Shown here one piece after another: positions 659 to 48,701 of a DNA stretch of 64,000 nt. The notes beneath the pieces were generated by a model, which was given only the letters and a program-made list of their open reading frames with translations, was not told the DNA's origin and did not search any database. Source of the stretch: Blepharisma japonicum (taxonomy: Eukaryota > Ciliophora > Heterotrichea > Heterotrichida > Blepharismidae); NCBI GenBank assembly GCA_949751835.1, contig CATKHK010000042.1, positions 1 through 64,000 of the forward strand, given 5' to 3'. A program made the translations under genes and the position numbers. Numbering within the stretch: position 1 is the stretch's first letter; each line of letters begins with the position of its first letter.

Positions 659-1926
659 CTAATTAATAAGCATGTTGATCCATTCATTTTTCTTCAAGTC
701 AAATGAATGTACTTCTCCATCAATTACCATAAATACCTTTTCCTTATAAAAAAGCGGATGGTTCGATATTGATTTATCCATTGATATGTGAGAGCAGTTT
801 CCAATTTTACTTCATGATGTTAGATTATCATTAGACTCATAAATGCATTTCGAAAATTCAAATAAAATCACTTTTTCATTTTTTACAGAAAATACTTTAG
901 TAGTTTCTCGAGATAGGCTTATTGATGGAATTTCTGAAAACGAGTCTATAAGTATATCATATGCCCCTTTAAGATGAAAATTTCCTAAACAAATTTGATA
1001 TAGACCTAATGTATTTTTATCATTAATTGGCATAAAAAAGCAGGATTAGGACTAGTTGACCCTATCAAAATTTTATTTTTAAAGAGAGAGCATGCTACCC
1101 TAAAGTCAATAGGAATTGAAAATTTTGTAACATTGATTCATTCTTTTCGTTTTATAGAGTATTTTACAGATATTCTATTTTTTCCTCCAAATAAATAGAT
1201 ATATTCATCAGCACAAACTGCCCCAGCACTTGAGTTCCAATTGTAAGGAAAAATTGAAGCAACTCTGCCAATTGGATCAATAGTTAGTCATCTGTAGCTA
1301 TGAGCACAAAAAATTTGATTATTTGGAAGTAAGCATTGAACTCCGTCGGCTCCAAATTCCCATGCTCATGCTTCATTTATTTTTGTTACCTTATAAGATT
1401 CTGCATCAAATATGGCTAGTCTACTTCTCACTTCATTAGTTATAAATTTTACAACCTGGCTTGTGGGACGATAGAATTCACGATAATCAAAGCTTTCCTC
1501 TATTGGCTCTAAGCTAAACAACTCAAATATTTTACGTTTCTCAATCCGCCCTATCTTCAGTTTTGGAGATTGGATTTTATAGATCCGAGAATCATTTTTT
1601 GATATTAATAATGCCTCAAGAAAAGAAAGCGATTTCGAATTGTCAATTTCTTTAAGAGAACAAATTTCTAAAATAATTTCAGTCAATCTCTTGTCGTAAA
1701 TTTGTAGTTTTGATAATATATTTTCTGTTATTTTGTGGATTTGTTGGATAAGAGATGATTCTTCATTGACATCTTTAATCCTGTTGGCTCTGATATCTGA
1801 TTTTATACTAGAGAATCGCTTGATAAGAGAATTTCGTGCATTTTGGCTGATTTCTGACTCCCCTCACACGAAGTTATTGAGAATGAAGAATTCTAATTCA
1901 TGAATTATTTTGAGAAGATGGTAAAT
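659..1926 (-). pseudogene. Kelch-propeller family member, decayed
   Basis: A leftward relative of the proteins at 4403 and 5961. The coiled N-terminal region (IKSDIRANRIKD, then SSLIQQIHK, IYDKRLTEII) and the propeller are recognisable, including the kelch-like SSAGAVCADEYIYLFGG, with several Trp as TGA. The open frame reaches back only to a TAA at 1927-1929 and has no in-frame ATG and no Cys/His cluster at the N-terminus, unlike its paralogues. Near 1033 the frame changes; the break coincides with a 73-bp TA-flanked insertion (960-1032). After it the paralogue alignment resumes at YDILIDSFSEI and runs to TAG at 659-661. Loss of the start plus the frame break argue for a pseudogene; an internal short intron was looked for at the break and not found. 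Confidence 0.7.
960..1032. mobile_element. IES-like insertion, 73 bp, TA-flanked, TIR TATGCC
   Basis: Paralogues run from the equivalent of NPAF straight into YDxxxDSxSEI; here extra sequence intervenes. Its ends are TATGCCCC and, reverse-complemented, TATGCCAA: a terminal inverted repeat that begins with the TA duplicated at 1033-1034. Length and TA boundary fit ciliate short internal eliminated sequences. Removing 73 bp leaves the reading frame one base out (one extra T in a T-run), so either the excision boundary is off by one or the host copy has drifted. Confidence 0.6.
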
Positions 1927-4402: not shown

Positions 4403-5839
4403 ATGGACGATCTCTCGTTTGTTTGTAATTGTGAAACAAATCCCGTCCTAATATGTAAGAATCATATATCTGATCATTCTCAGCTCGCAAGAACTCACAG
4501 ATTTGTCAATATTTCTTCATCTATAAATCAAGAAACAAAAATCCCTATCATTAAATTATTTTCTCGAGTAAAATCGAAAATAAAGCAGTTTAAATTAAAA
4601 GTTATCTTTGAAGAATCATCTATAATTCAGAAACTTCACAAAACAGTCGAAAATACTCTAGAAAAACTCAAAATTTATGATCAAAAATTAACAAAAATTA
4701 TTTCAGATATTTGCTCTTTAAGTGTAATAGACAATACAAAACCATTATCTTTTATAGAGACATTATTGTCAAATGATAAATCAATAATCAAAGAAATTCG
4801 GTATCCAAAATTACATATAAATGAAATTGACACCAATAGCATTACTGAAATGTTTAACTTAGAGCCAGCTGATAAAACTTTTGATTATAGTGATTATTAT
4901 CGTCCAACTCCTCAAGTCATTAAATTTGTATGCAATGGAAAGCGAAATAAAATAGCAATTTTTGACCCTTCAACATTAAAAATAAATAAAATTAACTACA
5001 TATGAAAAAAGACACTCAACTTTGGAGGTGTTGGATGCTTGCTGCCTAATGGAAATCTATTTTATAACTATAAAGATTCCTGGCTAATAATTAATCCGAT
5101 AGGCAAAGTAAAAAAAATACCTGCATATAAATGGAGTAATACAGCAGGTGCGACTTATGTTGATGGCAAAATTTATATGTTTGGTGGATCTGATGATAGT
5201 GCTGCGAAGTTTATTATAGACCAAAATAGATGAAGCTCATTTGGTAAAAGCTCAATTTCAATAGAGTTTCATACAACCTGTACGCTATTTAAAAATAAAA
5301 TTTTAATAGCGTCTAAAAGTGGAAATCCTATTTATTATGATATTATTGCAGATTCTTACTTTAATTTATTATTTCATCTTCAATCTGGGCACAAGATGCA
5401 TTAAATGTGGCTTTCTAAGGCCTCTCCTCGCCAGAGTAATATTTCTTCCGAGAAGCAGAATCTTTATAATTGCCATCTATTAAGATTCTTAGGAAAACCC
5501 TGTATGCTATTAAATAAGGAGTATTTAGAAGTTTTACAAAAGAAGCTATTATCTAATACATCAAAATTATTTTTTGTAAAAGATGAAAAAGTGCTATTAT
5601 TTGAGTTTTCGAAATTTATATATGAAAGTGCTGATAATTTAGTTACATGAAATATAATTGGATCATGCTCAATAATAACGCATTATTCAACTCTAGCTGG
5701 CTATCCAACCTACTATAATGGTGCAGTTTACATTGCTGTTAATGATTATGCATATTCTTTTGACCTGAAGACAAATATACTAGAAAAAATAGCATCTTTT
5801 AATCACTCGCTGCTGAACAGATATATATATAATGGATAG
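4403..5839 (+). CDS. Kelch-propeller protein with Cys/His N-terminus, interrupted by an insertion
   Basis: Starts MDDLSFVCNCETNPVLICKN, a reduced B-box-like Cys/His cluster, followed by a coiled region (KSKIKQFKLKVIFEE, LEKLKIYDQKL) and a kelch-like propeller (SNTAGATYVDGKIYMFGG). Several Trp are TGA; the stop is TAG at 5837-5839. After DIIADSY the frame runs into unrelated sequence with an in-frame TAA at 5402-5404; alignment to paralogues resumes at EVLQKKLLSNTSKLFF. The extra piece is the 165-bp TA-flanked insertion at 5357-5521. Without it the protein would be 423 aa, close to the 417 and 416 aa of its relatives; with it, it is truncated at about 333 aa. Whether the insertion is removed in some genome copies is unknown. 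Family proteins of this type are common in ciliates; the ligand is unknown. Confidence 0.75.
5357..5521. mobile_element. IES-like insertion, 165 bp, TA-flanked
   Basis: Begins with TA (5357-5358) and is followed by TA (5522-5523). Removal joins gattct-TA-tttagaag, giving DSYLEVLQKK, exactly the paralogue alignment (DSYSEI...). The ends share TACT as inverted repeats; beyond that similarity is weak. It is noticeably richer in G+C in the middle than its surroundings, and 165 is a multiple of three, so only the internal TAA breaks the gene. Confidence 0.65.
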
Positions 5840-7214: not shown

Positions 7215-7494
7215 ATGTATTATTCCTCATAATAAGTAATTTAGTTTTTTAATTTAAAATAATTATTGTAGCTAAAAGATTAAGTTAACTATGCTATGAG
7301 TTAATTAATTACTTTTTCAGGCTTCGATGTTAATATTTTTTAATATATAATTAAAGGAAAAAATAGTTAACTTCACATATAAATAAAAATTTATTTTAAT
7401 ATACTTTTGCTAAATTGCATTTGAATGCCAATCTAACCCTTCATAAAGCCCATCTCCAGTTATTGCACAATTACTTTGAATATATACTATAATT

Positions 7495-7700
7495 GATTAT
7501 ACTCAAAGATTCTCTTCTCACAGTCCTTCCTCTTCTTCTAGAAGTTTTATTTCTTCCTTCTAATTTCTACCTCAGTAAAAGCTCAATCTATATCTTCATC
7601 CTACTATGAGTAGCCTCTATCTGAACAATATTCATCTCAAGAGGCATTTCAGCTTGAGTGTAAATACGCCATATTAATGGCAAAAAAATCAATGAGGGGG
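7495..7700 (-). pseudogene. Fragment of a decayed acidic/basic protein gene
   Basis: About 200 bp strongly similar to 10786-10985. Read leftward it gives Trp/Asp-rich pieces (SWNASWDEYCSD, DEDIDWAFTEVEIR) with stops between them. The longer copy at 10519-10935 continues into a Glu/Lys-rich tail. I do not recognise the source gene. It sits inside an Arf relic, so it marks one end of the duplicated unit. Confidence 0.55.
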
Positions 7701-7881
7701 ATTTAGATTCTAATCACATAGACTCTAAATTTCTTTCATCTCTACAATTCATATTTATTTTCTGGGTACTAAGAACACTGCAAAAGAATCTACAACAAAG
7801 ATTACAGCATCAATGTTCTCATAATAATGATTCCACAACACCTTGATTTTCTCTGCTCCTCCAGTATGTCACACTATAAAT

Positions 7882-7987
7882 TATATTCCAAACTATATCT
7901 TCAGAAATACTTTTTATGGAGCATCTTGTTTAATTTTGCTAAAAAAGCCAGCTATAATTAAAAAATTCTTGCTATCCAGGTTAATAA
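7882..7987. mobile_element. IES-like insertion in the Arf relic, about 106 bp
   Basis: The intact Arf copies run through this point with continuous sequence (the codons of [10 protein letters not shown]). Here about 106 bp separates the two halves, with TA at both edges (7882-7883 and 7988-7989). The left part of the same insertion is present in the duplicated relic around 11155-11245. Several TA steps lie at each edge, so the exact boundary is uncertain by a few bases; no clear inverted repeat. Confidence 0.5.
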
Positions 7988-8489
7988 TATATTTTTATAA
8001 ATAATTGATTCCGAGCGAAATCAACTGTTGGGATGCATTCTAAAGTTTCTCCAAACCCTCAAGATATAAAGAATCGTGCTTTACCTGTGTGATAAGACCC
8101 GATAATAAGTATCCGTAATTTTTTATGCTTGTCAAACCTGCTTCAGAGATGTGATATTGAAGTTCCCAAGATGAAATTATACCATCTATGATGATTTTCT
8201 AATAGTTATACTACATTAATGCTATCCACTTCATAATGAATCATATTTTATATAAATATTCTATTTATCCCTTCCTTGTGGGATCTTTAAGAAATTCCCC
8301 GTTTTGGCTGATAACTCTATAATCTCATAATTTAATATAAGGATAATTATAACTGGTTCACCTATCTGAATTATTGAGGCTATAAAATTTTTAAATCTAT
8401 ATTAATACAGATTGCACTATTTAAGCCATGGTAAATCAGCCTACAGGTTGACACAGTTCATTCTTACTCATATTTATATAAAAATAAGA

Positions 8490-8917: not shown

Positions 8918-9466
8918 TTATGTACTTTTGCTCATCACTGCATTTGAAAGCCAATCTAGCCCTTCATAAAGTCCATCTCCAGTCGTTGCACAAGTGCTTT
9001 GAATATACCAATTTCTGCCTCTAATCATATAGAGATCTAATTTATCAATTAATTCTGCGCTTCCTAAAGCGCCTGGCAAATCATTTTTGTTGCTAAGAAT
9101 AAGGAATGTTACATTTTCAAGACAACTATCATTAGCTGCTCTATGGAGTTCATCTTTAGCTAATTCAATTCTTTCCATATCACTTGAATCTACAACAAAG
9201 ATGACAGCATCAGTGTTCTCATAATAATGGCGTCACAAAATTCTAATTTTTTCTTGTCCTCCAACATCTCACACTACAAATTGTATATTTTTATAATTAA
9301 TTGATTCCACATTAAACCCAATTGTTGGGGCAGTGTTTACAGTTTCTCCAAGCCTCAGTTTGTAAAGAATCGTTGTTTTTCCTGCGCAGTCAAGCCCAAT
9401 CATAAGTATACGTAAATTTTTATGCTTGTTAAGTCTACTCCAAAGATGTGATATTGAAGTTCCCAT
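8918..9466 (-). CDS. Arf-family small GTPase, copy a
   Basis: A complete 182-aa Arf. N-terminal MGTSIS offers Gly2 for myristoylation. G1 is GLDCAGKTT (Cys where most Arfs have Ala or Gly), switch 1 PTIGFNVE, G3 WDVGGQEK with its Trp as TGA, LWRHYY also with TGA, G4 SNKNDLP (NKND rather than NKQD), and G5 region [18 protein letters not shown]. Arfs recruit coats and effectors to Golgi and other membranes in the GTP form. The next copy, 11670-12218, is nearly identical, so this is a recent duplication. TAA stop at 8918-8920. All elements needed for nucleotide binding are present, so it is likely functional; which Arf/Arl class it belongs to is not resolved. Confidence 0.9.
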
Positions 9467-9710
9467 AATTAAAAATATATTATGTAAAGCAATTTTCTAA
9501 TAATTGCATTACATAAAAGTTATCATATGTATAATGGGTTATATATAAATTTTTTAATTATATTAATATAATTTATTACGAAAAATTCTAATTATATGTG
9601 TCTAAAATAATGTAAATTATCTTTAAAAAAAGTACAAAAACAAAAGAAATTTAATCTATAAAGCAACAAATTTATAGTTTTTACATCAGATTTTAATAAT
9701 ATTTCTTAAA

Positions 9711-10361
9711 TTAATAAACTCGGCTCAAAATTGCGTTTGAAAGCCAATCAAGTCCCTCACAAAGCCCTTCTCCAGTTATGGCACATGCATTTTGAATGTA
9801 TCAATTTTTCCCCCGAATCATATAAAGATTTAGTTTTTCAATTATTTCAGAATTCCTCATTGCATTCGGTAAATCATTTTTGTTGCTAAGTATAAGAAAT
9901 GGAACATTTCCAAGATTAATATAATTCAAGTACTCTTATTGGAAGGTTTAGCTCGCTAGAAAAGCTATTAGGAAAAATTAAAATTTTTATTGAACTCCTC
10001 GCAAAAAAATTGCTTAAGCTATATTATTTGATGCCCTATGGAGTTCTTCATTAGCCTCTTCAATTCTTTGTATGTCATTTGAATCCACAAATAAAATTAC
10101 ACCATCATTATTTTCAAAATAATGATGCCATCGATGTCTTATTCTGTTTCCTCCTGAAACATCTCAACAAGTAATTGCTATATTTTTATAATAAAATGTT
10201 TCCACATTAAAGTCAATTGTAGGAATGCATTGCATATTTTCATGAAGCTTCATTTGGCACAAAATTGTTGTTTTTCCAGCACCATCAAGCCCTATCATTA
10301 GTATTCGTACATTTTTACGTTTGGAAAATCTGTTTAAAAGACGAGAAATTTTGGTACTCAT
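9711..10361 (-). CDS. Divergent Arf-like GTPase, copy b, interrupted
   Basis: Starts [14 protein letters not shown] at 10361: the sister copy has MGTKIS, so the myristoylated Gly2 is changed to Ser. P-loop GLDGAGKTT is intact, but switch 1 is PTIDF instead of PTIGF and the G3 motif is WDVSGGN, lacking the usual Gly-Gly-Gln that positions catalytic water. G4 SNKNDLP and the end [16 protein letters not shown] are present; stop TAA 9711-9713. After LHRASNN the frame enters a 102-bp TA-flanked insertion (9920-10021) with stops. Without it the product is exactly 182 aa, the same as copies a, which strongly supports the insertion boundaries. As it stands the DNA encodes a truncated protein lacking G4 and G5. 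Confidence 0.7.
9920..10021. mobile_element. IES-like insertion, 102 bp, TA-flanked with TIR
   Basis: TA at 9920-9921 and TA again at 10022-10023. Ends read TATAATTCAAG and, reverse-complemented, TATAGCTTAAG: inverted repeats matching at most positions. Removal restores [20 protein letters not shown] without gap. A 98-bp sister lies at the same site in the duplicated gene (12381-12478), so it was present before the unit duplicated. Confidence 0.7.
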
Positions 10362-10518: not shown

Positions 10519-10935
10519 TTAAGATTCACTTTTACCTATTTTTTTCAAATTTTTAAAGGCTCTTTTAGCCTTTTTAGTTTGGGTTTTTGAGACTTTGGTA
10601 TTTTTGAGCTTTTATCCTTTTAATTATCTGCTCACCTGTCCCCGCTTTTTCTAATTTGGCTGACTTTCTTCGGGGCTTTTGATTTTTATTTCCTTTCCCG
10701 CTAGCATAATGGATTGAGATTTAGCATTACTTCTCAACTCATTCCTCTTCTTCCTCACTATCCCTGATTTTTTATCAGATTCCTCTTCTCACAGTCCTTC
10801 CTCTTCTTCTAGAAGTTTTATTTCTTCTTCCTAATTTCTACCTCAGTAAAAGTTTTATCTATATCTTCATCATGCCATATATCGCCACTATTTGAACAAT
10901 ATTCATCTCAAGAGACATTCCAGCTTGAGTATAAA
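10519..10935 (-). pseudogene. Decayed Glu/Lys-rich gene
   Basis: Leftward reading gives fragments in shifting frames: SWNVSWDEYCSNSGD, DEDIDKTFTEVEIRKKK, then EEEEGLWEEESDKKSG, RKKRNELRSNAKSQS, and a Lys-rich end (TKKAKRAFKNLKKIGKSES) to TAA at 10519-10521. Trp codons include TGA. At least two frame breaks and a stop separate the pieces, so it is dead. The upstream half is duplicated at 7495-7700. Composition suggests a charged, perhaps nuclear, protein; identity unknown. Confidence 0.5.
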
Positions 10936-11245
10936 TACACCATATTCATGGCAAAAAACAATCAATGAGGAGGAGTTAGATTTTAATCACATAAACTCTA
11001 AATTTCTTTCATCTCTACAATTCATATTTATTTTCTGGGTACTAAGAATACTGTAAAAGAATCTACAACAAAGATGAAAGTATCAGCGTTCTCATAATAA
11101 TGATTCCACAAAACCTTGATTTTCTCTGCTCCTCCAGTATGTCACGCTATAAATATAATTCCAAACTATATCTTCAGAAATATTTTTTATGGAGCATCTT
11201 GTTTAATTTTGCAAAAAAGCCAACTAAAATTAAAAATTCTTGTCC
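10936..11245 (-). pseudogene. Arf relic fragment (unit 2)
   Basis: Counterpart of 7700-7975: the KVLWNHYYEN and VVDSF region plus the left part of the TA-flanked insertion are visible, but everything upstream (P-loop, start) has been deleted, so the sequence jumps directly into the unknown relic at 11255. Confidence 0.6.
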
Positions 11246-11669: not shown

Positions 11670-12218
11670 TTATGTACTTTTGCTCATCACTGCATTTGAA
11701 AGCCAATCTAGCCCTTCATATAGCCCATCTCCAGTAGTTGCACAAGTGCTTTGAATATACCAATTTCTGCCTCTAATCATGTAGAGCTCTAATTTATCAA
11801 TTAATTCTGAGCTTCCTAAAGCACCTGGCAAATCATTTTTGTTGCTAAGGATAAGGAATGTTACATTTCCAAGACTACTATCATTAGCTGCTCTATGGAG
11901 TTCATCTTTTGCTAATTCAATTCTTTCCATATCACTTGAATCTACAACAAAGATGACAGCATCAGTGTTCTCATAATAATGGCGTCACAAAATTCTGATT
12001 TTTTCTTGTCCTCCAATATCTCACACTACAAATTGTATATTTTTATAATTAATTGATTCCACATTAAACCCAATTGTTGGGATGGTGTTTACAATTTCTC
12101 CAATCCTCAGTTGGTAAAGAATCGTTGTTTTTCCTGCGCCGTCAAGTCCAATCATAAGTATGCGTAAATTTTTATGCTTGTTAATTCTACTCCAAAGATG
12201 TGATATTGAAGTTCCCAT
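11670..12218 (-). CDS. Arf-family small GTPase, copy a'
   Basis: A complete 182-aa Arf, nearly identical to 8918-9466. It keeps more canonical residues than its twin: P-loop [18 protein letters not shown], and G3 WDIGGQEK. MGTSIS again provides Gly2 for myristoylation; G4 is SNKNDLP; the end is [18 protein letters not shown]. Two Trp are TGA. Stop TAA 11670-11672. Lying in a duplicated unit in the same order as the first copy, it is probably the better-preserved parent; both are likely functional. Confidence 0.92.
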
Positions 12219-12289
12219 AATTAAAATTATATCATGTAAAGCAATTTTCTAATAATTGCATATCATAAAAGTTATCATATGTATAAAGA

Positions 12290-12818
12290 TATAGTTTTTC
12301 AATTATTTCAGAATTCTTCATTGCATTCGGTAAATCATTTTTGTTGCTAAGTATAAGAAATGGAACATTTCCAAGATTAATATAATTCAAGTACTCTTAT
12401 TGGAAGGTTTAGCTCGCTAGAAAAGCTATTAGGAAAAAAAAATTTATTGAATGCCTCGCTAAAAAAAGACTTAATCTATATTATTTGATGCTCTATGGAG
12501 TTCTTCATTAGCCTCTTCAATTCTTTGTATGTCATTTGAATCCACAACAAAAATTGCACCATCATTATTTTCAAAATAATGATGCCATCGATGTCTTATT
12601 CTGTCTCCTCCTGAAACATCTCAACAAGTAATTGCTATATTTTTATAACAAAATGTTTCCACATTAAAGCCAATTGTAGGAATGCATTGCATATTCTTAT
12701 GAAGCTTCATTTGGTACAAAATTGTTGTTTTTCCAGCACCATCAAGCCCTATCATTACTATTCGTACATTTTTACTTTCAGAAAATCTGTTAAAAAGACT
12801 AGAAATTTTGGTACCCAT
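12290..12818 (-). pseudogene. Truncated Arf-like copy b'
   Basis: Starts [18 protein letters not shown] with intact Gly2 and P-loop GLDGAGKTT, then IPTIGFNVE and [13 protein letters not shown] (Trp as TGA). After LHRASNN a 98-bp TA-flanked insertion interrupts (12381-12478). The reading resumes [16 protein letters not shown]... and ends at KLYLY, where a deletion fuses it to the spacer upstream of copy a', removing G5 and the C-terminal helix. Compared with unit 1, roughly 290 bp between the two Arf genes plus the Arf 3' end are missing. Dead as a GTPase. Confidence 0.75.
12381..12478. mobile_element. IES-like insertion, 98 bp (sister of 9920-10021)
   Basis: Same site in the gene, same left end (TATAATTCAAGTAC), right end rc TATAGATTAAG, flanked by TA at 12479-12480. 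Differs from its 102-bp sister by a few substitutions and small indels in the middle. Confidence 0.65.
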
Positions 12819-13082: not shown

Positions 13083-13628
13083 TTAATTTCTACTTAAAAT
13101 TGCATCTAAAAGCCAATCAAAGCCTTCACAAATTCCTTCACCAGTTAATGAACAAGTGCTTTGAATGTATCAAATTTTTCCTCGAATCATATAAAGACCT
13201 AATTTGTCAATTAATTCAGAATTACTCATAGCATTAGGTAAATCATTTTTGTTGCTAAGAATAAGAAATACAGCATTTTCAGTATTGCTATCATTAATAA
13301 CTCTATTAAGCACTTCTTTGGCTTCCTCAATCCTCTGCATATTACTTGAATCTACAACAAAAATTATACCATCAGAATTTTCAAAAATATAATGCCATAA
13401 GAGCCTTATTTTGTCTCCTCCAGAAATATCTCACTGTGATATCGCTAAATTTTTATAATAAAAATTTTCTGTACTAAAACCAATATCAGGAATGGATTGC
13501 AAATGCTCATGATGCTTCATTTGATAAAGCATTGTTGTTTTTCCTGCACCATCAAGTCCTATCATTACTATTCTTAGATTTTTATGTCCAGAAAATCTAC
13601 TAAAAAAGCTAGAAACTATAGTTCCCGT
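13083..13628 (-). CDS. Divergent Arf-like GTPase, copy c, without ATG
   Basis: An uninterrupted frame aligning over the whole Arf fold: GTIVSSFFSRFSGHKNLR, P-loop [17 protein letters not shown] in switch 1, WDISGGDKIR (G3 altered as in copies b, Trp TGC-adjacent region intact), G4 SNKNDLP and STCSLTGEGICEGFDWLL. Stop TAA 13083-13085. The codon where every paralogue has ATG is ACG (13626-13628), and there is no in-frame ATG upstream; the first internal Met (RIVMIGLDG) would remove the N-terminal helix. Apart from that the gene has no break in 181 codons, so either it uses a non-ATG start, the base is an error, or decay has just begun. The shared SGG in place of GGQ marks b, b' and c as one divergent clade. 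Confidence 0.65.
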
Positions 13629-41266: not shown

Positions 41267-41921
41267 TATAAAAAATTTGTTATATCCAACTGCTTATTTT
41301 CGATTTAAGTATGATCCTATGATAGATATGCTAAAAACATACTCTTTAGAAAGGATAGCCTATCTACTTTTATTAGTTTATACGGTAAATTTAAAAATCC
41401 AAATAGTTAGATAAGTTGCATATTTTCAATTGATGGGCAATGGTAGGCTTATTTATTTTAAAGAAAAAGTATAGGACACCGATTATATGCTTAAGGATTT
41501 TGAATTTAAGGTATACAATTTAGTCCATAATTTCAAGATATGAACATATTTATTAATTCAATAAATTATTAAAATTTTTTTGTAAGATTAGATATTTGGT
41601 GGGATACTCCTGCGATGTTTTATGATTGCTGATAAAGAAAGTAATATAACTGGAATTATTAAAAAATGCCAATTTAAGATTGGTAAAATTTTATAATGAT
41701 TTTATATCACAGCAGATGATCTTAATATTCAGAATGAGTTAAAAAATATAAAAATTTGGATTTTATCATCAATTTCTAAAAATAAACGCCTAGCTATCAA
41801 ATTCCCCAATGATTATAATTTATTATTCTTATTTTCGTCTTTTGCTATTATATCTATAACTCTACCTCTAGTTTTTTTCTATTTTCTAGTAAAAATCCTT
41901 TGACTGTAAATCCATAATAAA
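41267..41921. other. Intergenic, divergent promoter region (CK1 / Piezo)
   Basis: 655 bp between two genes transcribed apart; no specific element recognised. Confidence 0.5.
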
Positions 41922-44900
41922 ATGCTGCAGCAAATATTTTGTACCCTTTTATTGCTTTGCGGATCATTTTATGCTACTTGCTTCTCTGGAGTTTACATAG
42001 CGTTTGCCTTATACATTTGAGTCAGCTTAATATTAGGTTACAATGCCCCAAAAGCGATCTTTAAATTTTTATTGCTCATGAACTTGCTTGTCATTTTGGT
42101 AAAATCTTCTCTGATATTTCTCATTTATTATAAAGAATTCAATATAATTCAAGTGACTGAAAATTCTTTTCTCACCCGAGGCTTATTTCTGGATGAAAAT
42201 GCTATGGAGCCTTGACTGTTCAAGAATTTTGGATTCGATCTTTTGGCACTTATCATATCAATTATTGGCTCGAAATATGGTTATCATTCTAAATTTTCAA
42301 GAAGATTAGGTCTATATGGCTTTCGATATCAGGTAATGCAGGTTTTCGAATGGGTTGGGCTTTCGCTCTTATGTGTAGAATGTGTAATTTATTTTTCAGT
42401 CATCAGTTTTATTTATTCTCTTTTGGCTATAGCAATAGGAATAAATTTACGATATAAATCCAACACTGCAGGGAAAGTGATATGCATTTTAGTATCATCT
42501 TTTTCGTTAATTCAGATAATTTTTTCTTATCTTTACAAGGTTATTTTGCATCAATGAATTGGAGATGATATTGTATGAGGCTTAGGACTAATTACATGAG
42601 ACCAAAAAATGCTTAGTGTCTATGTAACAGCTTTTGCTTTACAGTGGCTTTATACTTATTTAGGATTCGTAAAAATGAATAAATTCCAAATGAAAAAAAT
42701 GATGTGTGCTCCTTTAATTCTTGTAAATGACGGCATCATAAGCCAAGGGCATGGAAGTGCATTTCTAGATTATACGTGAAAAGAAACAGGCTTGCACTTA
42801 ATAGCAAGATTTTTCTGTATATTATGGTCAATTTATTTTAAAAATATCCTGAGTATGGCAATTATGATTCCTTTATTTTTATCAATGATTATCACACATA
42901 AAAAAATAATATTAGCCTTATACAGAGTCATTTTGATCCCTTTGCTATTTGGAGGGTTTTCATTTAGTTATGTTAAAAACCTATATCTAAATGACAATTC
43001 TTATTTACGAAAAGGGGAAATTGCATTTTTAATAATTACACTTATGTGCTTTATCATTTTAGTAAGGCTCGAATATAGAAAACATAGGAAAAAATTTCGT
43101 CCAAGCCGACTGAGTTTTCTTTTAAAATGATGATATTCTATATCTCTTTTATGTGTTCTCCTGGTAGGACTTTCCCAAGTAGATATAGCCCATGGATTAA
43201 TTGTTCTAGCATACTTTGTTTTCTTGATGATGGATGCTTTAATACCAAAATACTGAATTTACTTAACAGGCTATAGTATGGGTTATTTATTTCTAATAAA
43301 AACGATAAATGTTTTTCCAGAAATTTTAATGTCAAGTTTTGTATCAAATACAACTGATGCAAGCACTATAGGTATTTTAACAGAAGAATTTAATAGAACT
43401 ATTTATTGGAATGAAGTCCTTATGTGAGCACTTGTGATTTTTCAAGGAATTCAGTTATGGATAAATAAAACAAGAAAAAAATTAATGTTTAGAACAAGGC
43501 TGATTACATCATCTTTAAATGACCAAAAAAAGCATGCACTTTATGTATGGTATAAAGGCGTTGAGCTTTGATTTATTTTTGTGCTAATTTTTACATTTAT
43601 TTTAATGTCTGCCAAAAATTTCATTAATTTTGTTAGGTTCATCTTAGCTTGTGTACTCGTTATTGATCATTTGAAAAAGCCAGTAAAATATTATACAAAG
43701 GACTTTACAGGAGTACTCTATATGACATTTATATTCAAAATTTTAAGCGGGATTATTCTAATAGGGAGATACTTATATCAGTATTTCCCATTGTTTTCGC
43801 TGCCAACTACAAATAGTTTATTTATAGGAATAGAAATCTATGATACTACCGACCTGTATACCACAGTAATACTTGATTCATGCTTATATATTGCCTCAAG
43901 ATACTCATATAGACTACTTAAAGTGCAAAAGGCCAAAGTAATAAAATATCTTTTTGATTATTCAAAATACTATAAATACTGAGTAATTTTTGAATCTCAT
44001 CACTTCTTTTTACTTTTAGTAATCTTTGTACTCTCTGTGTATTGGAAGCTCTCACTTTCAATGTTTTTGTATTTATTAATTGCAATTATTTACTTTATTT
44101 CAATCTGTATTTATTTCAATAATGTCATAGATCGTGATTATGAAGTAGAGTTAAGATATCGAAGAAGGTTGTGAAGAGCGCTTTTCACTATAACAATCTC
44201 ATCTTTTATAGTTTCATACATAAATGTGCTATTAGAGCCCTCGTTTTTCCAGCCAGATATTAATCTATATTTGGAATGGACATTTTTTATTATAGGTTTC
44301 ACAAAGACTACCAACTGGAGTATTTTAGATAATTATGGCTACTTTATCATTTGCATATTTTTGATCATGGAGAAGCATTGCCTAGAATATTTAACTCCAA
44401 AAACTGAAGAAGAGCACTTACTAAAAGCAAAAGAACAAGAACTGGCTGAAGAAGGGGTTAAGAAAAAAGTAAATGCTGTGTTTATTGTTACTCTTAACCT
44501 TATTATTATCATTTCAGAATCAGTCATACCTATGATGCTTTTATTCATAGCATTTGATAAGCTAACAATAATAAGCGGAGTTTATTTACTGACTTTATTT
44601 TTTATCTCAATCTTAAGTAAAGATAACCAAAAATTGGTTTTTTGCATGACTTTATCAATTATGGTGCTAGTTCAGTATATATTGATTTTGAGCAATATAA
44701 ATAAAAAGAATTCGCCTCAGACTCCGCCAACTATTGTTCAATTTGATGAGCCTTGATTTATGAAGCAAGACTGAATTACAATGGACGATCCTTTCTTTTT
44801 AAATCTTGGATCTGACATTTCTCAGCTGCATAGCATACTTTTGGATCAAATTTGTATACTGCTTTGCATGCTGCATTTTATTCTATTAGTCACTTATAAA

Positions 44901-47900
44901 TCTGATAGAAAATTATATGACTCAAATCTCCGGCAAAATCAAGAAAATAATGAAAAATCAGAAAAATTTGAAAATTCAGAAAAATTAGAAAATTTAGAAA
45001 AATTAGAAAATTCAGAAAAATATGAAAATTTGAAAAAATTAGATAATTTAGAGAAATTAGAAAATACAGAGAAATATGAAAAAATTAAAAAACCAGAAGA
45101 TTCTCATGAAAATGAAGGAAACACACTGCAAAAAACTTGGGGATTTATTAAGAGACAAGTTTACAAATTTTCGCGGTACTTATTCTTATTCTTCGTCTTA
45201 TTGTTTACATCTCAAAGCTTAGGGCTAATTTCTCTGATTTACTGTATTTTTGCTTTACTTTTTATTTTAAAGGAAATTGACCTTATCGAAAGTATAGAAA
45301 ATCTCCAAAAATATATCAAACTCCTAGCCTATTTCCTCTTATTCGTATTATTAGATTTAATTGTACAATTTACTTTCCAGATGCCATTTCAAATTTTCCA
45401 AGAATATGGAGAGAATAATCTTTTCCAAGTTGTCGGAGTCTTAAAACTGTGAAGAGCAGGCTCCAACTCTTTTGACCCTAGCCATCGTGCCTGGACTTAC
45501 ATAAATTTGAAAATTTCAGTCTTTGCTGTAATTTGCCTTATCTATAGAATGATAAAAAGCGAAGAATTTAATAAATATTTTGATGAACAGCTAAAAGAGC
45601 AGAACAATCAATCTAAAGAGCTAGGCATACTTAAAGCAAAAAAATTTAACGACGATCGAATTGACAGGTTCAAAGACTACGAAAAAAGTAGATTTACATT
45701 TAAAAATGAGCTAAATAAGCTAGAAAAGCATTTAGAAATGCTGAGGTTAAAAGATAAAGAATTAGATCAAAAAAAAGGAAAAGATTTTTTAGACTTTTCA
45801 AATACCCCAAAATTAATGCCTAAAGCCACAGGTGAAAAGCAAGATAAACCATTGAAAGTCCACATTGATAATTTACTGATAAGGCTTGTAGATCCAGTGC
45901 TATTTAAAGATTATTTGCAAGAAATTGAAAAAAGAGATAAAATGCAGACTCCAATTTTAGAGTTGACGAATCTTGATGAAGAAATACATAGAAGAGTATA
46001 TAAAAGAAGCAAAACTGAAGCGCATCAACCCATAATAGGTGATGTTAAATTCGATGAAGATAATACTACTATAAAAGATTACAGACTGATTTTAGGGGAC
46101 TATTTAAGACTCCTTTTTATGTATATTCCCAGCAGTAATACTCAAAATCTTTTATTTATTTTATGCTTTATAAACCACTATAATTATGCAAGCCTAGAAT
46201 CAGTGATTTTGCCATTATCTGTTGTAGGGTATGCTATGCTTGAATATCCAAGACCCCCTCCGCTTTATTTCAAAACTTTACTGTACTACTGCAGCGGGGT
46301 TTTCCTAATAAAATACTGTATACAGCTAGAAATTTGGCCTTATATCACACAGAATAAATTTCCAAAGGAATATCATGACCCTTTTAAGACAGGCTTTAAC
46401 TTGGCTAGCAATACTCATAGCGAAAACCTATTTTACTACACCATTTGGGATACTTTATTAATGATTATGATTTTATTCCATTTATATTACCTCAGAAGAG
46501 TTGGCTTATTTTCTCAGTCAGAGTATGATATAGAAACCTTTGAGCAAGCTAAAGACAGAAAAGAAAAAGAAAAATCTCTGTCTAGAAACACATTAGAAAA
46601 TCTTGTCGTAGAAGCTCAAGACTCCTTTTTAGAACCCCACCCCTCATGCATTAAGCGATTTTTTAAAAATATCGAAAGATTTTTCTCAAGACTTATCCCC
46701 AACAATAAAGAAGAAAAGCCAGGAAAGGATTTTTATTTCCCAATTATTTTTACTCAGCTTGTGATTTTGATTTATATTTTCTTTACTTTCACCAAAATGG
46801 AGGGGTATTCCCAAGATATTTCTCAGTCAATAAGAGCTAATCAATTTCAAGGGAGAATGGTGATAGCTCTGATCGTACAATTTTCATTAATTCTATTAGA
46901 TAGATATTTATACGTAAGGAAGACATCGCAAGCGTTAAAAGAAAACTTAGAAATTGGGAGTGAAGACTCTGATAAAGAATCAATTGCTTCTGACGACTGC
47001 CTACCAAAATCTCGGTCAGCAACTGTCTTTCGGACTGATTTAGCTACTCATAGAAGTGAGCTTAAAAAGAGACTTTCCTTTTTGACGAGAGCACAATTGG
47101 ACTCTGATGATGAATTAGAAGATTTTGAAAAAAGCTTAGATGAATCCTCGAAGCAGTCTACTCCTGTAGAAAAAAGGCATAGAAGAAAATGGAACAAAGA
47201 TTTGCTGCTAAAAGTGCTTCTACATATTTTGATTATGCTACTTATCCATGTGCTAGTATTTTGGTATTTTCCTATCAGCGGCACATATAGTTTGACAGGA
47301 AAAGTGTATTGCCCTGACAATAACTCAGACAACTGCAATGATTTTCAAGTCAATGACTTTATTGAGTGGTTCTACATCATTTACGCTGTCTATTTTATGA
47401 TCGTTTCTCTACAAATTAGGCATGGTCTCCCCACCTTTAGAAAAGTTTCATTTCCGCTTATGAGAAGTACCAATATTTGGTCATATAGAATGTTCAAAAC
47501 TTATCTTGCAATGCCATTTTTGTTTGAGTTAAGGACACTAATGGACTGGACCTTTACAAAAACGACCTTGGATATTTACCAATGGTTTAAATTTGAAGAC
47601 ATTTATAATCAGCTTTATATAACCCAGTGCGTTTATAAATGATATGAAAATCCTCAAAAAGACCCTATTCATTGGACGTGGAAAGTTTTTAATGGCGCTT
47701 TTGTGATTCTTGTTATTTGTCTCGTCATTTTAGCGCCTTTAATTATATTTAGCACCCTAAATCCTATAGTAGAAAGCAATCAAGTAAGATACATGAATAT
47801 GGAAATCAGCATAAATACAGATGATAGGACTTATTTACTTTATAATACAAAAACTCTTGACGAATCACATTTTATTACTGAAGAAGAATGGACAAGCTAT

Positions 47901-48701
47901 GAATTTAATGATGTAAAAGAGGTCCAATCAAGCGATATCGATAGGATGCAGATTATTTCTTTACCTTTGTTTCAAGAAACTTATTGGCAAATTACACCGC
48001 CGAGTAAGGAAAGGCTTTGTAAATCACTTAATGATACAGCAAACTATCAGGGCTCGTCAATAGAAATGACGCTGGCTTTTTATAGAAGGTATCCGTATGG
48101 GCAAACCAGGGTATCACAAACTATTAGGGCGCCTCTGCTTAGGAAAACGAGGATATTTTATGAGATGATTTGTAATGAGGCTTATAACACGACAGAATTT
48201 AGATATGATGATTTTTATGGGAAAATTATTAGGCTCCCGAGTGCGGGGACTTTTATAACTTCACAGCCAATAGAAGTAAAAGGATTTACATCGGACTTGA
48301 TTATAAGACTTCACACATATAAAACAGATCTTTCATACTGAGAAGTGGGGAGCACAGGGCAAGATTCAAAAACTATTGGCTTGAAATTTTTTATGATCTC
48401 TGATCATTACAGCCCTGCGACATTTAATTTTTCTGTCTTGACTTTCTACATATCTGTAGTCTACTTAGTAGCCAGATTTTTAAGATATTTTGTAACTGGA
48501 GGTTCAAAAAATATTTATGTCACTGACATGAAAAACGCTGGGCCACTTATAACTTTATGTTCTGGGATTTATGTGAGTCGTATGAGAGGAGATTTGATAA
48601 GAGAAGAAGAACTGTATTATGAGTTGATTGATATCTTGAGATCGCCTGAGCTAGTTAGAATGATGACAGGAAAGTTATCAATTAAACTTAAAAAAGATTA
48701 A
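41922..48701 (+). CDS. PIEZO: Piezo mechanosensitive cation channel
   Basis: 2,259 aa in a single exon, open only because TGA is Trp: at least 18 in-frame TGA codons occur. Dozens of hydrophobic helices in groups of four match the Piezo blade repeats. Family hallmarks: YPRPPPLYF near residue 1445 (Piezo PRPSxxFW), LRTLMDWTFTKTTLDIYQW then FKFEDIYNQLY near 1870-1895 (the anchor/clasp region), a large extracellular cap between the last two helices (about 1945-2165), and the C-terminal beam LCSGIYVSRMRG ... EEELYYELIDILRSPE near 2213. Piezo forms a trimer that opens under membrane tension and passes Ca2+. A 43-residue Glu/Lys/Asn repeat (44952-45080) sits in a cytosolic loop. Start: ATG 41922, preceded in frame by TAA at 41907. 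Confidence 0.93.
44952..45080 (+). repeat. Low-complexity EKxEN repeat in Piezo
   Basis: About nine imperfect units of 12-18 nt built on gaaaaattagaaaat, coding EKLENLEKLENSEKYEN-like sequence. Likely a slippage-prone charged linker between blade helices. Confidence 0.8.

Follow-up and report, generated by a model that had tools for sequence, protein, structure and literature searches.

A 102-bp insert in an Arf-like gene near the left end of contig C42, together with its sister in a neighboring Arf copy, is probably an internal eliminated sequence (IES)-type, TA-bounded piece that was left uncut in tandem Arf pseudogenes. The window analyzed here is the first 64 kb of this 390-kb contig, which belongs to an assembly of 45.2 Mb in 224 contigs. 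The gene copies and inserts are listed in Table 1.

Table 1. Arf copies, Kelch-like gene and inserts of the array, in positions of the window.
Feature	Position	Strand	Remarks
73-bp insert	958..1030	(-)	CATA repeat; in Kelch-like gene 659-1926; alignment gave extra 74 bases
Kelch-like gene	4403..5839	(+)	otherwise open over 423 codons; 165-bp insert breaks frame
165-bp insert	5357..5521	(+)	boundary repeat TA, as aligned
Decayed Arf copy	7377..8180	(-)	has its own 104-bp TA-bounded insert
104-bp insert	7885..7988	(-)	ATAT repeat; in decayed Arf copy
Intact Arf A	8918..9466	(-)	182 aa; omega 0.226 vs B
Arf copy 1	9711..10361	(-)	insert-broken; 182 aa without insert; G2S, G50D, F90L, V91F
TA-bounded insert, Arf copy 1	9920..10021	(-)	102 bp; boundary repeat ATAT
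Intact Arf B	11670..12218	(-)	182 aa
Arf copy 2	12282..12818	(-)	insert-broken; C-terminal part missing (291 bp absent vs unit 1, boundary repeat TATAA)
Same insert, Arf copy 2	12381..12478	(-)	98 bp; boundary repeat ATAT
Arf copy 3	13083..13628	(-)	insert-free relative; ACG at expected start codon

Genomic Setting

The Arf frames of the window were open when TGA was read as tryptophan, and they aligned to solved Arf1 structures. Against PF00025 (ADP-ribosylation factor (Arf) family), Arf A scored 230.6 bits, and the two halves of copy 1 scored 127 and 62.1 bits. Nine of the ten in-frame stops examined between abutting ORFs sat at a 15-nt GT..AG candidate intron. Arrays of CCCTAACA were found in the assembly, several of them within the first 100 bases of contigs among the matches listed. 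TGA as tryptophan, 15-nt introns and such telomere-repeat arrays have been reported for Blepharisma stoltei in the part of the source used here (PMC9942806), and from these three features the organism was judged to be Blepharisma-like. Further along the window, positions 41910-48701 (6.8 kb) held an uninterrupted frame of 2263 aa with Piezo channel domains.

The Insert and Its Boundaries

The minus-strand frame of copy 1 ran to ELHRASNN and then met stops inside the insert. When positions 9920-10021 were taken out, 549 nt remained, encoding an open Arf of 182 aa that aligned without gaps to both intact Arfs (8918-9466 and 11670-12218). The coordinates given by an earlier sequence-only reading were thus confirmed, as was its claim that excision at TA yields a protein of the same length as both intact copies. 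That reading had also placed a TA at each edge, and an ATAT direct repeat, which contains TA, indeed bounded the insert in both copies. Owing to these ATAT edges, the insert of copy 1 could be placed in five equivalent ways, starting anywhere from 9919 to 9923, all giving an identical product. Neither copy has lost the TA at either edge, so failed excision cannot be put down to a simple boundary mutation, which counts against the reading of an IES left uncut.

The sister element proposed at 12381-12478 proved to be real, with the same ATAT and 89% identity to the 102-bp insert (BLAST). All differences between the two lay within the last 44 alignment columns, and the first 58 columns were identical; conversion is a possible cause of this clustering. 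Faster evolution of the insert than of its exons was not supported (7/98 vs. 19/435 differences; Fisher p = 0.30). The sister gene did carry the insert as claimed, but it was not restored to 182 aa, because 291 bp including the C-terminal codons were missing relative to unit 1, and removal of the insert restored the coding sequence only as far as this separate loss. The missing bases correspond to the stretch 9531-9821 of unit 1; the loss lies at window position 12282 and has the boundary repeat TATAA, so that gene DNA itself shows a TA-bounded deletion. Neither copy 3 nor the intact Arfs A and B carry the insert, and a search of the whole 45-Mb assembly found no third copy, both known copies being in the tandem array. 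Its presence in both units indicated that it is probably older than the unit duplication, in agreement with the earlier claim.

The boundaries were compared with those of 400,000 intervals, each 60-200 bp long and drawn at random within the window. A TA-containing boundary repeat was found in 3.5% of them, and one of at least 4 bp in 1.2%. The insert ends had been described as inverted repeats, and 8 of 11 positions did match; however, four of these eight came from the shared TATA, and among 435 TATA..TATA pairs lying 80-130 bp apart in the window, 16% scored as high, which is not above chance. Against these controls the TA boundary stood out; the inverted repeats did not, and they were no longer counted as evidence.

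The part of the B. stoltei account available here (PMC9942856) gives 39,799 IESs, 10,778 of them in the 65-115 bp range and largely non-repetitive, with TA in the boundary repeat of most, about three quarters; terminal inverted repeats were common, heterogeneous and not universal. Measured against these features, the insert had a TA-containing terminal repeat, restored the coding sequence on removal, and at 102 and 98 bp fell within 65-115 bp. Judged by boundary, length and precision, it is plausibly an IES-type piece, and it resembles neither an intron nor a repeat-family member.

Selection on the Gene Copies Carrying the Insert

Copies 1 and 2 were compared over 145 codons with the insert left out. 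Of their 19 differences, 16 were nonsynonymous and 3 synonymous; for Arfs A and B the split was 12 nonsynonymous and 11 synonymous. In the codon model, omega was 1.08 for copies 1 and 2, indistinguishable from 1 (p = 0.91), and 0.226 for A and B (p = 0.001 vs. 1). It was 0.225 between B and the relative on contig C154 (p = 0.0005) and 0.464 between A and the same relative, not clearly below 1 (p = 0.08). A direct comparison of the count tables for copies 1-2 and A-B gave a Fisher p of 0.048, with small power from only 19 and 23 differences. When changes were assigned to branches by rooting on copy 3 and the intact Arfs, copy 1 received 2 synonymous and 11 nonsynonymous changes and copy 2 received 0 and 5, with one nonsynonymous change unplaced.

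Forty-six columns were invariant across nine Arfs of the genome, a set that includes three close relatives (A, B and C154). Copy 1 departed at seven of these columns (G2S, L37M, G40H, G50D, G69S, F90L, and V91F), sharing L37M, G40H, and G69S with copies 2 and 3, and copy 3 departed at 11. Gly2, which is the myristoylation site of Arf proteins, is thus lost in copy 1, unlike in the Arf family. At the GGQ motif, copies 1-3 have SGGN or SGGD in place of the GGQE of A and B. The usual glutamine is missing from other Arfs too: two on contig C2 have GGGD, and the relative on C154 has GGHP.

Copies 1 and 2 show no detectable purifying selection, copy 1 has lost residues that are conserved in functional Arfs, and both look like pseudogenes. 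An omega of about 1 in the carriers, the lost residues and the ACG start of copy 3 together suggested that this whole branch of the family is decaying. Removal of the insert therefore restores the length of the protein and probably not its function, because the gene outside the insert shows no purifying selection. The earlier interpretation of a left-over IES whose removal restores an Arf held for the IES-like boundary and the length, whereas rescue of a working Arf was unsupported, given the omega of 1.08 and the seven changed columns. This is also a warning that a frame restored by TA-bounded removal is insufficient for calling a gene functional, since the selection test disagrees here.

The broken gene has a third relative, a partial copy at C154:35035-35210 of which only the C-terminal part is kept. 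A T run differing by one base puts this copy out of frame, and Kelch-like sequence comes next; the copy ends before the insert position and is uninformative on the presence of the insert. At 7484-7785, the decayed Arf copy of the window has lost about 178 bp and instead holds about 300 bp of different sequence, which resembles 10777-11058.

Other Inserts in the Arf/Kelch Array

A comparison among Kelch-like and Arf copies within the array revealed three further inserts, giving four independent sites (73, 165, 104, and 102/98 bp) with the repeats CATA, TA, ATAT, and ATAT. The TA of the 165-bp site follows the alignment; an automatic scan, in which the reference was short on the left, favored a placement four bases on, with an unchanged length and TT as the repeat. 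The boundary scan at the 73-bp site listed TA-containing repeats only. At these two sites TA is thus a less independent line of evidence than it is for the Arf inserts.

The 165-bp insert is longer than the 65-115 bp class, contains a stop, and is the best candidate in the array for a normally excised IES. Besides its 73-bp insert, the Kelch-like gene at 659-1926 seems to carry a one-base frameshift. The first 87 bases of the 104-bp insert recur with 94% identity in a second fragment at 11158-11242. An extra stretch of 145 bases in a Kelch copy on C154 was left uncounted, as that copy was too decayed for its boundaries to be placed.

As a control, additional stretches roughly 40-600 bp long were sought in 30 Arf loci out of 151 matches. 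All five loci of the array, which overlap one another, were flagged, and a comparable insert was found in none of the 25 loci on other contigs. Between 15.2 and 64 kb, 17 of the 41 ORFs have a paralogue there, and no insert was found in any of these 17.

Origin of the Insert

Among the other explanations, the one that survived best, and that we hold to be unlikely, is that the left end of the contig (about 1-15 kb) is unprocessed germline DNA or a macronuclear (MAC)-variable region, and that the inserts are ordinary IESs absent from most macronuclear copies. The inserts found did sit within the first 12.5 kb of the 390-kb contig, of which 64 kb was examined, and the coding DNA that was compared, about 8 kb, yielded five insert instances, a number compatible with germline density (P of 5 or fewer = 0.22, lengths summed by hand). 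The density used, about 0.97 IES per kb (39,799/41 Mb), was computed from B. stoltei, which may be another species. MAC-variable regions of Paramecium, as described in the portion of PMC8354472 used here, are low-coverage scaffold extremities with 0.4-0.5 IES per kb. However, about 4.15 kb of intact array genes were free of inserts (P = 0.018 at the B. stoltei-derived density, with hand-summed lengths). The 6.8-kb Piezo frame was likewise unbroken (P = 0.0014 at the same B. stoltei-derived germline density), as were the 17 ORFs with a paralogue. Together with these ORFs, the Piezo frame disfavored a wholly germline contig, the first 15 kb apart. A repeat end that would be expected thousands of times in B. 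stoltei germline DNA gave eight matches in the assembly, each with two mismatches, with the caveat that the species may differ. Copy 1 is moreover enclosed by Arfs A and B, which are intact and under purifying selection; the array therefore looks like expressed, macronucleus-destined DNA.

It seems quite improbable that the insert is a fixed TA-targeting insertion into a pseudogene, for instance by a MITE-like piece or a decayed transposon, that was never excised as an IES. The TA boundary would fit, and B. stoltei germline DNA contains a Pogo-family transposon with many MITEs and also a Tc1-family transposon, according to the part of PMC9942856 at hand. Against this, the 102-bp insert had no relatives outside the array, and each of the 165-bp and 104-bp inserts was, when searched, unique or shared only locally. 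A copy from a MITE or transposon family was rejected, since in place of dispersed copies the search of the assembly yielded two, each lying within the tandem array. Such pieces are in any case not sharply separable from IESs in ciliates.

An unusual spliced intron is scarcely credible, for although removal restores the frame of copy 1, the product is without constraint, none of the five placements has GT-AG ends in either insert copy, and a spliceosomal intron (GT-AG, 15-16 nt here) was rejected on those ends and on the 15-nt GT..AG candidate introns at 9/10 of the stops examined in the window.

We thus favor an IES-type piece left uncut in Arf pseudogenes, although a fixed TA-targeting insertion, or assembled DNA that was unprocessed or only partly processed, would give an identical picture. 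A TA-bounded piece of this type would have entered one Arf paralogue, probably at a time when copy 3 had already split off and copies 1 and 2 had not yet arisen by duplication. The unit of carrier paralogue plus intact Arf would then have been duplicated in tandem. With the carriers under no purifying selection since that duplication, the insert may have been tolerated and the efficiency of its excision not maintained. The excisase presumably recognizes the insert or once did, and the insert would stay in the macronucleus of the sequenced cells. The Kelch-like gene at 4403-5839 goes against a pattern of dead genes only: it is otherwise open, and it fits a normally excised IES better.

Should the insert be a retained IES, the array would set carriers beside non-carriers of one family, so that loss of excision killing a gene can be weighed against a dead gene dropping the cost of excision. 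A wider proposal, which we regard as doubtful, is that the Arf/Kelch array is a hot spot of excision error in both directions, with pieces retained at four sites and the TA-bounded 291 bp over-excised from copy 2, driving the birth and death of gene copies. If that were true, the product of the Kelch-like gene could depend on how frequently its 165-bp insert is cut.

Comparison with Known Systems

Literature searches for a retained IES with a pseudogene and for Blepharisma with a TA-indel returned nothing. One of the closest likenesses is to the short periodic IESs of B. stoltei, as presented in the part of Seah et al. (2023; PMC9942856) drawn on here, which share the alternating T/A repeat with TA, the length class, the non-repetitive nature and the often intragenic position. 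Those IESs, however, are defined by their absence from macronuclear sequence, whereas here the assembly itself contains the insert, within a gene that shows no detectable purifying selection.

The TA-indels and residual IES retention of Paramecium (Arnaiz et al., 2012; PMC3464196, in part) are alike in being TA-bounded presence/absence differences that arise by retention or excision of destined DNA. They were seen as reads against the assembly at one locus, whereas paralogues within one assembly were compared here. In the same portion of that paper, TA-indels are treated as errors of the excision machinery and not as IESs unless there is further support, a caution that applies to the present insert. 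The MAC-variable regions of Paramecium, in the excerpted account of Sellis et al. (2021; PMC8354472), likewise place IES-bearing DNA in macronuclear assemblies at scaffold ends; in contrast to them, the array described here holds intact genes under purifying selection.
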